Origin: Sphingobacteriales bacterium
Lineage (GTDB): Bacteria > Bacteroidota > Bacteroidia > Sphingobacteriales > Sphingobacteriaceae
NCBI GenBank assembly: GCA_004293485.1
Contig: RDYW01000035.1
Location: 1 to 64,000, forward strand
Direction: 5' to 3'
DNA length: 64,000 nucleotides
Below the pieces are notes generated by a model. The model had not been told where the DNA came from. It was given only the letters and a program-made list of their open reading frames with translations, and did no database searches. Shown in pieces: positions 44,273-48,083 of this stretch. How positions within the stretch are numbered: the first letter of the stretch is position 1; every line of letters begins with the position of its first letter. Both the position numbers and the translations under genes were made by a program.

Positions 44273-44422
44273 TGTGTTACTATTCGGCTTACACTATCTT
44301 TTTAAGTGTGTAAGTTAAAAAGTTGGCTTAATGCACATTTGTGGTGTTTTTTGGGTAGTCGTTTGTTCTATGTAGACAAAAATGAAGGCCTATATTTTGT
44401 AGAGTTTTGCAGGTTAAAAAAT

Positions 44423-44602
44423 TTAATCCCATTTGTTTTTGAGTATATACTCGGTTGCCATAGCATCAATTTCATCGGTTGATGATTGTTGGTTACCCCG
44501 TAAGCATTTATCTAACTCGGAACGCTTATAGAGTTTTTTACCTTGTGGGCAAAAACAAGGAGTACTCTCTGTAACATGTAAGTTTGTACAAATATGAAAG
44601 GC
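44423..44602 (-). pseudogene. Remnant of a helix-turn-helix (excisionase-like) gene
   Basis: An open frame of about 60 codons on the minus strand with no start codon. It ends in KKLYKRSELDKCLRG then STDEIDAMATEYILKNKW and a TAA. That is the usual C-terminus of small Bacteroidota HTH_17/MerR-like DNA-binding proteins, which typically have a complete N-terminal helix-turn-helix of about 40 more residues. Here the N-terminal part is missing or scrambled and a TAA precedes the fragment. It is the only coding trace in the 494-base gap 44273-44766. Confidence 0.5.
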
Positions 44603-44766
44603 TTACAACATGGTATTTGCAAGCCTAGTAGAAGTGTTATACTGTATTTTGCAGTAAATTTTGCACATTTAATGGCTTTAAAATAAACTTTGATAAAGTG
44701 TATTTTAAAGCCTATGCATATAAAAACAAACAAAAAAATTAGGTTTAAACCAATAAAATTGAGGTT

Positions 44767-45375
44767 TTAGTAGCTACGCACAAAACTAATACCCATAGCC
44801 TCGACCACTGATTGTTTTGACCTTGAATTACCTACCATAATAATATCCTTTGGGTTTAAATTATGTTGGGTTAATAAATAATTTAAGGCCTCTGATAAAG
44901 GCTCATCTTTAAATTCATCTTCAAAATACACTTTTAAAAATGTTTCGATACCATTCCACTCGGTTTGTTTTATTTTATTTAGTTGCCTTTCGGAGATGCC
45001 AGCAGTAAGTATAAAAACCGACTTGTGGTTTACAATTATTTGTTTTAGCAAAGTTAATGCATCGTTAAATAGCAATAGTTTTAAAGGTAATTTAGCTTTG
45101 TTAAAAAGTTGGTTCAAATTATTTTGGTAATTAATATCAATGGCAAATGTTTTGTGTAAAGCCTCAAACATTTTATTATTGCCATGTGATTGATACCGTT
45201 GCTTTGCATATTCAATAATTTCGGTGGCTATAAATTGTGGTTTTTCATAAGCTAAAAAATGAGCAAATAAGTAATATACCTGCAAATCGTAATCTTTTGT
45301 AGGAAACAATACATCATCAAGCTCAAAAATAAAAGCTTTGTATTGTTCATCAAAATTTGAATATTTTAAACGCAT
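44767..45375 (-). CDS. HAD-superfamily-like protein with altered active site
   Basis: 202 residues with the length and fold pattern of a HAD hydrolase with a helical cap. Motif I reads FELDDVLFP (17-25): the usual nucleophile Asp is Glu, while the +2 Asp is kept. Motif II (FILTAG) is present, but motif IV reads MVGNSRSKQ instead of GDxxxD. Phosphatase activity is therefore doubtful. The gene overlaps the ATP-grasp-like gene by 10 bases and ends an operon with lolD. Confidence 0.75.
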   Translation of the reverse strand: MRLKYSNFDEQYKAFIFELDDVLFPTKDYDLQVYYLFAHFLAYEKPQFIATEIIEYAKQRYQSHGNNKMFEALHKTFAIDINYQNNLNQLFNKAKLPLKLLLFNDALTLLKQIIVNHKSVFILTAGISERQLNKIKQTEWNGIETFLKVYFEDEFKDEPLSEALNYLLTQHNLNPKDIIMVGNSRSKQSVVEAMGISFVRSY

Positions 45376-46100
45376 ACTGTTAGTGTTTTAATAGATAATA
45401 ATTGGCCGTTTAGTACCATTAATTTAAAAAAACCTTTTAAGTTATGTTGGGCTTGTAATTTTTTAAATTGTAAGTTGAGGATTTCATCTATCTTATTATC
45501 ATAAAATATATTAGCATTTACACATAAGGCCTTTACTTGTTTAGGTTTGTGCCTATAAATATATAAAGGCACAAAATTAGCTTGTTGTAATAACCTGCTA
45601 CACTGCAAAAACGACAGTATGCCTTCTTCGTTCCATAGTATATTTGGGTTGGCTAGGGCATCGTTTATGTGGTACAATTGCCCGCTTAAATCGGCTTTGC
45701 CAAAATAAACACTTTTGTTAGGATAGCCCAAAGTTAAAACCGCTGCCGAAAATTCTTTAAAATTACTCGCTTTAATAATAGTATTACTGTGTATAAATGA
45801 AGTAACATTATCAACCATTATAGGTTGTGTTATCATTAAATTGATACCAAACTCTGTAAATAAAATTTCACACTCGGCCAAAGCAACTACTTCTTGCAAC
45901 TGTAAAGGGAAAACCCAATCAATATTGTGCTGTAAACAATACTTTAAAAACTGGTGGGCATAAGCATTTTCGGAGGGTGCGGGCACAATATTCACGTGTG
46001 TTTGGGTATCGCAAAAGTGTATATCATGATTTTTAAAATGCCAGGCTAACTGGTAAGCAAGCGCATTATTGGCAGCAGTAATTAAAATTTTTTTCGGCAT
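45366..46100 (-). CDS. ATP-grasp-like protein (carbamoyl-phosphate synthase/PylC-like fold), possibly degenerate
   Basis: 244 residues. The N-terminus is a pre-ATP-grasp Rossmann-like domain (KKILITAANNALAYQLAWHF, then NIDWVFPLQLQEVVALAEC). The rest is shorter than a full ATP-grasp domain (about 200 residues after the first 100 are usual) and I cannot find the metal-binding Glu/Asn pair. It lies 2 bases after lolD and overlaps the HAD-like gene. Substrate and activity unknown. Confidence 0.65.
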   Translation of the reverse strand: MPKKILITAANNALAYQLAWHFKNHDIHFCDTQTHVNIVPAPSENAYAHQFLKYCLQHNIDWVFPLQLQEVVALAECEILFTEFGINLMITQPIMVDNVTSFIHSNTIIKASNFKEFSAAVLTLGYPNKSVYFGKADLSGQLYHINDALANPNILWNEEGILSFLQCSRLLQQANFVPLYIYRHKPKQVKALCVNANIFYDNKIDEILNLQFKKLQAQHNLKGFFKLMVLNGQLLSIKTLTVCV

Positions 46101-46102
46101 TA

Positions 46103-46756
46103 TTAGCTTTGAATTTGACCATCAAGAATGGTAATTTTACGGTCGGCCATGTTGGCTAATTCGTTATTATGGGTAACTATCACAAAAGTTTGGTTTAATT
46201 GTAGGCGCAAATCAAAAAATAATTGATGCAATTCTTTAGCTGTTGCCGAGTCTAAATTACCCGATGGCTCATCGGCTAATACCAATGCTGGGTTATTTAC
46301 CAATGCCCTAGCTACGGCTACACGTTGCTGTTCGCCACCCGATAAGTTATTGGGTTTATGCTTGGCTCTATCTTTTAAACCCAATATATCCAATAAAAAT
46401 AAAGCCCTTTTTTCGGCTTCTGCTTTCTTTTTTTTAGCTATAAAAGCGGGTATACACACGTTTTCTAAGGCTGTAAACTCGGGCAATAAATGGTGAAACT
46501 GAAAAATAAATCCTAAGTTAAGGTTTCTAAAAGCACTTAATTTATTGGCATTTAAAGCTGTAACATCTACTTTGTTTATAAATACTTTGCCTGTTGTGGG
46601 TTTATCTAAAGTGCCAATAATATGTAACAAAGTGCTTTTACCAGCACCTGATGCACCTACAATACTCACTATTTCGCCTGTATGAACGCTAAGGTTTACA
46701 CCTTTAAGTATTGGCAAGGTATTATAGTTTTTATAAATGTTAAGTGCTTGTAGCAT
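46103..46756 (-). CDS. lolD: ABC transporter ATP-binding protein, LolD-like
   Basis: 217-residue ATPase of the MacB/LolD family. Walker [10 protein letters not shown] near 34-42, signature LSGGEQQR near 138, Walker [13 protein letters not shown] near 158, H-loop VTHN. LolD with LolCE moves lipoproteins from the inner membrane toward the outer membrane. No membrane permease gene is adjacent, so the assignment rests on sequence class; MacB-type or FtsE-like roles remain possible. First gene of the operon with the ATP-grasp-like and HAD-like genes. Confidence 0.8.
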
Positions 46757-46892: not shown

Positions 46893-48083
46893 ATGAACAT
46901 TCACGAGTATCAAGGAAAACAAATATTAAAGAGTTTTGGTGTACGCATTCAAGAAGGCATTTTGGCAAATACGCCCGAAGAAGCCGTAGAAGCTGCCATA
47001 AAAATGAAAGAAGATTATAACTCGAGCTGGGTAGTTATAAAAGCACAAATTCATGCTGGTGGACGAGGTAAAGGTGGCGGCGTAAAGCTAGCCAAAAATC
47101 ACGAACAAGTAAAACAAATAGCTACCGATATTATTGGTATGCAATTGGTTACACCTCAAACAGGCCCCGAAGGCAAACTCGTAAGTAAAGTACTGGTAGC
47201 ACAAGATGTATATTACCCCGGGCCTAGCGAAACCAAAGAATTTTATGTTTCGGTATTGCTAAACCGAGCTACTGGGCGCAATACCATTATGTACAGTACC
47301 GAAGGCGGTATGGATATTGAAGAAGTAGCCGAGCATACACCACACTTAATTTTTAAAGAAGATATAGACCCTAAAGTAGGTTTACAAGGTTTTCAAACTC
47401 GTAAAATTGCTTTTAACCTAGGCTTATCGGGCAATGCTTTTAAAGAGATGACTAAATTTATAGCCGCACTTTACAAAGCCTACGAAGCTACGGACTCGGC
47501 CATGTTCGAAATTAATCCTGTTTTAAAAACATCCGATGATTTAATTTTAGCAGTTGATGCCAAAGTAAATATTGATGATAACGCATTATTTCGGCATGCC
47601 GATTTTGCCGCCATGCGTGATACTGCCGAAGAAGATGCTACCGAGGTAGAGGCCAGCGAATCGAACCTAAATTATGTAAAACTTGATGGTAATGTAGGCT
47701 GTATGGTTAATGGCGCAGGCCTAGCCATGGCCACCATGGATATTATTAAAATAGCTGGTGGCGAACCTGCCAACTTTTTAGATGTAGGCGGTACGGCCAA
47801 TGCTACTACAGTAAAAGCTGCTTTCCACATTATTTTAAAAGACCCCAAGGTAGAAGCCATACTTATTAATATTTTTGGTGGGATTGTACGTTGCGACCGA
47901 GTAGCCCAAGGTGTTATTGATGCATACAAAGAAATGGGAAACATACGTGTACCTATTATTGTACGTTTGCAAGGCACCAATGCTGTTGAAGCCAAAAAAT
48001 TAATCGACGAATCGGGCTTAAAAGTTTTCTCGGCCATATTGCTTAAAGAAGCCGCCGATTTAGTATCCGAAGTATTGGCATAA
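46893..48083 (+). CDS. sucC: Succinate-CoA ligase (ADP-forming), beta subunit
   Basis: TCA-cycle enzyme that makes ATP (or GTP) while converting succinyl-CoA to succinate. 396 residues from the ATG at 46893 (MNIHEYQGKQILKSFGV), the canonical N-terminus; the upstream TTG adds foreign residues. ATP-grasp domain in the N-terminal part (VIKAQIHAGGRGKGGGVKLA), and the CoA-ligase segment LINIFGGIVRCDRVAQGVI near residue 325-343. sucD is not adjacent. Divergent from lolD. Confidence 0.95.
   Translation: MNIHEYQGKQILKSFGVRIQEGILANTPEEAVEAAIKMKEDYNSSWVVIKAQIHAGGRGKGGGVKLAKNHEQVKQIATDIIGMQLVTPQTGPEGKLVSKVLVAQDVYYPGPSETKEFYVSVLLNRATGRNTIMYSTEGGMDIEEVAEHTPHLIFKEDIDPKVGLQGFQTRKIAFNLGLSGNAFKEMTKFIAALYKAYEATDSAMFEINPVLKTSDDLILAVDAKVNIDDNALFRHADFAAMRDTAEEDATEVEASESNLNYVKLDGNVGCMVNGAGLAMATMDIIKIAGGEPANFLDVGGTANATTVKAAFHIILKDPKVEAILINIFGGIVRCDRVAQGVIDAYKEMGNIRVPIIVRLQGTNAVEAKKLIDESGLKVFSAILLKEAADLVSEVLA

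Follow-up and report, generated by a model that had tools for sequence, protein, structure and literature searches.

What do two enzyme-like proteins that lack key catalytic residues do in one operon with a lolD-type ATPase? The question arises from the minus strand of the window, as we call the whole 64,000-nucleotide stretch of Sphingobacteriales DNA analyzed here, where three open frames follow one another closely: the gene of a LolD-type ABC ATPase (46103..46756, 217 aa), that of an ATP-grasp-like protein (45366..46100, 244 aa), and that of a HAD-like protein (44767..45375, 202 aa). Two bases separate the first frame from the second, and the second and third overlap by 10 bases (45366..45375). 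A divergent sucC-like gene on the plus strand (46893..48083) provides context and lies outside the module.

Three proteins in one operon

The ATPase carries a recognizable Walker A, signature, Walker B, and H-loop (ABC_tran E 3.2e-34) and matches TIGR02211 with an E value of 2.2e-83. It resembles LolD of the LolCDE system in having all ATPase motifs and in heading the 34 TIGR02211 matches of its genome; it differs in being encoded without LolC/LolE and in scoring 279.1 bits, under the model cut-off of 307.75. This cut-off is strict, since 13 of the 14 control genomes also fall below it and one passes. Judged from its sequence, the window's ATPase is filed as LolD-type, short of a proven LolD. 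The genome's lolCE-model matches lie on other contigs (the best two on C25 and C66, both under the model cut-off), as do its FtsX matches, away from lolD. Little can be read from the lack of LolC/LolE nearby, because no lolCE-like frame was noticed by eye beside lolD in the loci read from other families. A second LolD-like ATPase (G000:C21:2907-3563, 241.8 bits to TIGR02211) stands alone between genes that look by eye like those of an M16 peptidase and a thioesterase.

The second protein combines a putative PylC/PRK12767-type Rossmann-like domain at its N-terminus with a remnant of the ATP-grasp domain. Its N-terminal matches to PylC-like_N (E 1.5e-4, 22.3 bits, cut-off 27) and PRK12767 (E 3.5e-4) are both under the respective cut-offs, and the former cut-off is passed by the relatives L005, L009, and L020. 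A PDB sequence search with this protein gave no matches at E <= 1. An AlphaFold2 model built from the family alignment (pLDDT 88.7) has as its nearest solved fold the carbamoyl-phosphate-synthase-like 2pn1 (E 3.7e-7; Z 11.7, rmsd 4.8, 199 residues aligned). The protein shares its overall fold and probably its N-terminal domain with the PRK12767/ATPgrasp_Ter (PF15632) ligases, and unlike them it lacks the catalytic Lys, the E-x-N-P-R ligands, and the C-terminal part. When 10 long forms from the family were aligned with 5 intact ATP-grasp outgroup proteins, the catalytic Lys and the E-x-N-P-R ligands were missing from all 10, which also end early.

The third protein matches HAD_2 with an E value of 5.1e-9, over the Pfam cut-off, and its AlphaFold2 model from the family alignment (pLDDT 96.5) fits a Rossmann-like core with a C1-type (helical) cap, that is, a HAD fold. 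Structural comparison returned PH1655 (2hoq, Foldseek E 1.2e-7) and YfnB (3i76, Z 14.4, rmsd 3.4, 182 residues aligned), while a PDB sequence search gave no matches at E <= 1. With these HAD_2 phosphatases the window's protein shares the fold with its helical cap, Asp20, and the motif II residue Thr124. It departs from them at the remaining motif positions, all on the minus strand: Glu18 occupies the place of the nucleophilic Asp in motif I (F-E-L-D-D-V, 45310..45327), Glu158 replaces Lys in the motif III region (D-E-P, residues 157-159, 44898..44906), and Lys187 replaces Asp in motif IV (G-N-S-R-S-K-Q, 44812..44832), which is left without any acidic residue.

These readings agree with most of what a first-pass annotation had described for the locus. 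The coordinates confirm the tight packing, a 2-base gap followed by a 10-base overlap; the Glu in place of the HAD nucleophile is there, at residue 18 rather than in its "Glu17-type" numbering; and motif IV is free of acidic residues. The ATP-grasp-like protein is indeed short, at 244 aa, and has neither the E-x-N-P-R metal ligands nor the Lys, and LolC/LolE are not encoded nearby. The structure predictions that it had proposed, carried out here on each single protein, gave the two models above.

Distribution and conservation in Sphingobacteriaceae

We examined the best 80 of 324 named loci, whose titles include Pedobacter, Mucilaginibacter, Daejeonella, and Arcticibacter. Because one of the two peptide patterns used to retrieve them contains the Glu, this sample leans to Glu-type copies; the homology searches of sampled family and order genomes are free of that lean, with the motif read in fetched copies only. 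The co-occurrence with lolD that the first-pass annotation had raised is real: lolD, the ATP-grasp-like gene, and the HAD gene stand together in 70 of these 80 Sphingobacteriaceae-type loci, two more hold lolD and HAD only, and the trio also appears in 25 of 30 loci fetched with HAD from further genomes of the family. In the control, lolD from other families was matched in 48 of 60 genomes and 30 loci were returned; among the 28 examined, neither partner was found at E <= 0.01. With 70/80 against 0/28, the trio is not a chance association, and since none of the other-family lolD loci has either partner, the module belongs to Sphingobacteriaceae. The idea that the trio was unique to the window was discarded on the same count.

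Within 61 sampled genomes of the family, a HAD homologue occurs in 56 and an ATP-grasp-like homologue in 51, some of the weaker matches among the latter being intact enzymes. The order sample gave a HAD match at E <= 1e-6 in 200 of 201 genomes, and among 296 genomes sampled from the phylum, 9 match HAD at E <= 1e-10, eight of them in Sphingobacteriaceae and the ninth being G195. Both partners are absent beside lolD in G032 and G403; the HAD match of G403 (4.9e-7) is probably another HAD, because the lolD locus of this genome has neither partner. G005 and G019 keep the ATP-grasp-like stub beside lolD and have lost HAD, and the stub went undetected in L082 and L092. The two genes are lost independently of each other.

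The ATP-grasp-like gene is the more reduced of the two. In just 12 of the 70 named trio loci does the frame reach 220 aa, and many of the other frames, at 97-200 aa, extend little past the N-terminal domain. By the evidence of its sequences, this protein is a relic.

Conservation of the Glu across relatives, also raised by the first-pass annotation, proved extensive. We compared 113 distinct HAD copies, each 150 aa or longer. The nucleophile position is Glu in 111, Asp in one (G058), and Gly in one (L027). The equivalent of Asp20, the second motif I Asp, is present in 111/113, the motif II Thr (Thr124) in 105/113, the motif III Lys (position 158) in 91/113, and the motif IV Asp (position 187) in 94/113. 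Since 86/113 combine the Glu with all four of these residues, the typical member has lost the nucleophile only. The window's copy is further eroded: Lys158 and Asp187 are lost too, and with them perhaps the ability of its pocket to bind phosphate. In its nearest relatives, L067 and L068, motif II is gone as well. Eleven positions are constant in 113/113 (Phe17, Asp28, Gln32, Tyr34, Tyr35, Phe37, Leu98, Asn133, Lys134, Trp140, and Glu154), and the constant Lys134 may stand in for the motif III Lys.

Three simpler descriptions of these changes were set aside. Decay is not confined to the window's copy, given Glu in 111/113. "Glu in every relative", as the first 30 copies had it, fails on the one Asp, the one Gly, and the Asp of the intact cassettes described below. 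Nor is the family marked by the absence of the first acidic motif IV residue, since G195 has Asn at that position in an Asp-type HAD; the HAD copies of genera g11 and g23 have Asp at this position.

All three genes are under purifying selection of graded strength, strictest on LolD (dN/dS 0-0.09, 9 pairs), next on HAD (0.05-0.17 over 8 pairs; the ninth pair, at dS 0.017, carries no information), and looser on the ATP-grasp-like gene (0.04-0.33 over 8 pairs, with L102/L103 dropped for a mis-called start).

The intact cassette and the origin of the pair

The origin of the pair can be read from related genera. We read the locus in 7 genomes of g11, g23, and g24, which belong to the same family. 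In five of them (L260-L264), a PIG-L-type frame comes first, then an ATP-grasp frame (about 350 aa), then the HAD gene, and lolD lies on the same piece in four of these five (L260, L261, L262, and L264); L265 and L266 offer the HAD piece only, at a contig end. Genes in these loci were named by eye except where Pfam is cited: it identifies PIG-L (2.4e-16) and ATPgrasp_Ter (1.2e-35) in L260 and ATPgrasp_Ter in L262, and the ATP-grasp frames of the intact cassettes carry E-I-N-P-R. Motif I of HAD reads Asp-Leu-Asp or Asp-Phe-Asp in all five of the g11/g23/g24 copies whose N-terminus is present, and the later motifs, where present, are complete in L260, L261, and L264, with motif IV shortened in L262. 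These HADs carry the family stretch EKDYL(F/Y)QVYY, most also have QQLNKI..LEWHGL, and L260 and L261 have the family's NGNPEQQLNKIKHLEWHGL. As these stretches are common to both forms, the intact-cassette HADs are of the same lineage as the Glu-type HADs. The window's operon contains no PIG-L frame.

Between lolD and the intact set sits a membrane-like frame of 491 aa that Pfam does not match, on the strand of lolD in L260, L261, and L264 and on the opposite strand in L262; our guess is a glycosyltransferase.

Comparable sets exist farther out. G195, from another family, encodes PIG-L, ATP-grasp, and a HAD with FDLDDT in a glycan-type locus, amid genes that look by eye deacetylase-like, glycosyltransferase-like, and sulfotransferase-like, and profile comparison relates its two proteins to both family proteins (E 1.6e-13 and 1.1e-21). 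G132 has, as read by eye, an ATP-grasp/HAD pair with overlapping frames. In G120, an ATP-grasp protein (L213 1072-2367) has an apparent C-terminal HAD fusion with a DLDDC motif, in a neighborhood that looks sugar-aminotransferase-like (both by eye).

A quickly built tree of 49 HADs has an unsure root, two ungrouped outgroup rows, and one row (L023) unmasked at the tested column; on it, the D/E/G state of motif I requires 3 changes, compared with 8.6 when labels are shuffled. This count is consistent with a single switch to Glu, plus a reversion to Asp in G058 and a Gly replacement in L027. The G058 copy itself (L267 4467-5072) is a long-form relative with the Asp nucleophile and without the motif IV Asp, and its genus mates have Glu; its sequence suggests either reversion or late survival of the Asp form.

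The sequences thus place the origin of the pair in a biosynthetic cassette. Because the same locus in g11, g23, and g24 holds intact enzymes together with PIG-L, the pair is not a module built for lipoprotein transport. Of the undescribed regulatory or assembly module that the first-pass annotation had suggested, the conserved degenerate pair and its old linkage to lolD stand, and the purpose-built tie to lipoprotein transport falls. Its view that intact homologues in relatives would mark this copy as simply decaying is half borne out: intact forms do occur in g11, g23, and g24, and most relatives keep the Glu form.

For the chemistry of the ancestor, a comparison can be drawn with Campylobacter jejuni, where Cj1435 is a HAD protein. 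In the capsule pathway of this organism, the ATP-grasp domain of Cj1438C is reported to attach serinol-phosphate or ethanolamine-phosphate to glucuronic acid, after which Cj1435 removes the phosphate from the product (PMC11800379). We offer this as a works-like comparison for the ancestral ATP-grasp and phosphatase and claim no membership: Cj1438C has a TupA-like ATP-grasp, both proteins are active enzymes, and they are not known to be linked to PIG-L or lolD. The ancestral cassette probably decorated sugars and may have been of the C. jejuni capsule kind.

Possible roles of the retained HAD protein

The sequences show the descent of the pair from the cassette, its linkage to lolD, the residue changes, and the selection. 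The reading we prefer, and hold to be somewhat more likely than not, is that the pair are worn-down descendants of the cassette and that HAD has been kept, most likely as a pseudophosphatase that only binds, perhaps as a regulator or adaptor with LolD. In a Sphingobacteriaceae ancestor, a PIG-L deacetylase, an ATP-grasp ligase, and a HAD phosphatase would have stood beside lolD, the first presumably deacetylating a sugar, the second coupling something, and the third dephosphorylating. Loss of PIG-L would have left the remaining enzymes without a pathway. The ATP-grasp protein would then have lost its catalytic residues first and most of the domain afterwards, and today's stub may be an optional helper on its way out. 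HAD would have exchanged its nucleophilic Asp for Glu and been retained. Changes of the HAD nucleophile from Asp to Glu usually abolish activity. Because the residues that hold metal and phosphate are mostly kept and the nucleophile is missing, the Glu-type protein should bind a phospho-ligand, or else a protein partner, without turnover; its catalysis has probably been lost, and its role would be one of binding. Co-produced with LolD as a cytoplasmic protein, it could regulate envelope or lipoprotein biogenesis or act there as an adaptor. It might conceivably act on LolD itself, and a role for the pair in LolCDE is possible.

A rival that deserves real weight, though we judge it the less likely, is that the conserved role of HAD has nothing to do with lipoprotein export, that its place was inherited, and that co-transcription gives steady expression and little more. 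The intact cassette already adjoined lolD before the residue change, so the neighborhood needs no new functional link. Local gene order is also generally stable here, since the divergent sucC is kept in 56 of the 80 named loci; the sucC|lolD arrangement occurs in other families of the class as well, in several of the 28 lolD loci examined there. Moreover, HAD needs no linkage to lolD, because it stands away from lolD in 8 of the 80 loci, all of them Mucilaginibacter and Glu-type (L104, L114, L121, L123, L132, L135, L141, and L142), and each time it is followed by the same S41-peptidase-like gene. The sampled genome G014 has its lolD piece and HAD piece about 10 kb apart. Against this rival, the junctions look more like those of a kept operon than of mere neighbors: the lolD/ATP-grasp-like junction is tight in 59 of the 70 named trio loci and the ATP-grasp-like/HAD junction in 60 of 70, where tight means -50 to +60 bases with automatic start choice and the counts are approximate, as ATP-grasp-like starts were mis-called in L073, L102, L109, and L122 (10, 18, 5, and 3 aa). 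The linkage to lolD is tight, but it is older than the Asp-to-Glu change and breaks in one Mucilaginibacter group that keeps HAD.

A bolder form of the binding role can be drawn up, in which a family-wide pseudophosphatase, established through one Asp-to-Glu change within a former glycan-decoration cassette, captures a phospho-metabolite or the head group of a phospho-lipid and signals this to LolCDE, tying lipoprotein export to surface-glycan synthesis; we consider it improbable as it stands. Slighter still is the chance that HAD remains an enzyme, one with another substrate and with Glu18 or some other residue as its nucleophile or general base. The many copies that keep the equivalents of Asp20, Thr124, Lys158, and Asp187 alongside Glu speak for it, as does the Asp at the nucleophile site of G058; the further motif residues lost by the window's copy and by L067 and L068 speak against it, as does the usual effect of the Asp-to-Glu change. 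Functionless decay of the window's copies is very unlikely, for although Glu158 and Lys187 stand where most copies have Lys and Asp, and the S41 gene is missing here (the ~490 bases of 44273-44766 downstream of HAD hold no gene-like frame, and tblastn found no S41 relic in the window), the frames are open, all 11 constant positions are intact in the window's HAD, and the nearest sister pair, L067/L068, has dN/dS values of 0.17 for HAD and 0.20 for the ATP-grasp-like gene.

For the preferred reading, retention of HAD for binding, the STYX and MK-STYX pseudophosphatases offer a parallel: they are described as having a catalytic residue replaced while fold and pocket are kept for binding. They belong to a different fold family and to eukaryotic signaling, and serve as an analogy only. 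In the literature searched (titles and the beginnings of abstracts), we found no description of a lolD/ATP-grasp-like/HAD locus; as far as that search reaches, this is an undescribed, conserved pseudoenzyme pair with a clear enzymatic ancestor. One family displays a near-complete series beside the same lolD, from an intact three-enzyme cassette through the pseudoenzyme pair to stubs and losses. If a single nucleophile change produced a bacterial HAD pseudophosphatase that a whole family retains, this is a rare and testable case of an enzyme becoming a binding protein, and if HAD touches LolCDE, lipoprotein export in Bacteroidota, a pathway poorly known there, would have a cytoplasmic regulator.

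The S41-peptidase-like neighbor is itself a regular companion of the locus. It lies on the HAD strand in 73 of the 80 named loci and within 400 bases behind HAD in 66 of 80. Its product matches Peptidase_S41 (2.2e-16) and begins, by eye, with a lipoprotein-signal-like sequence, as in L104 (4660-6228).
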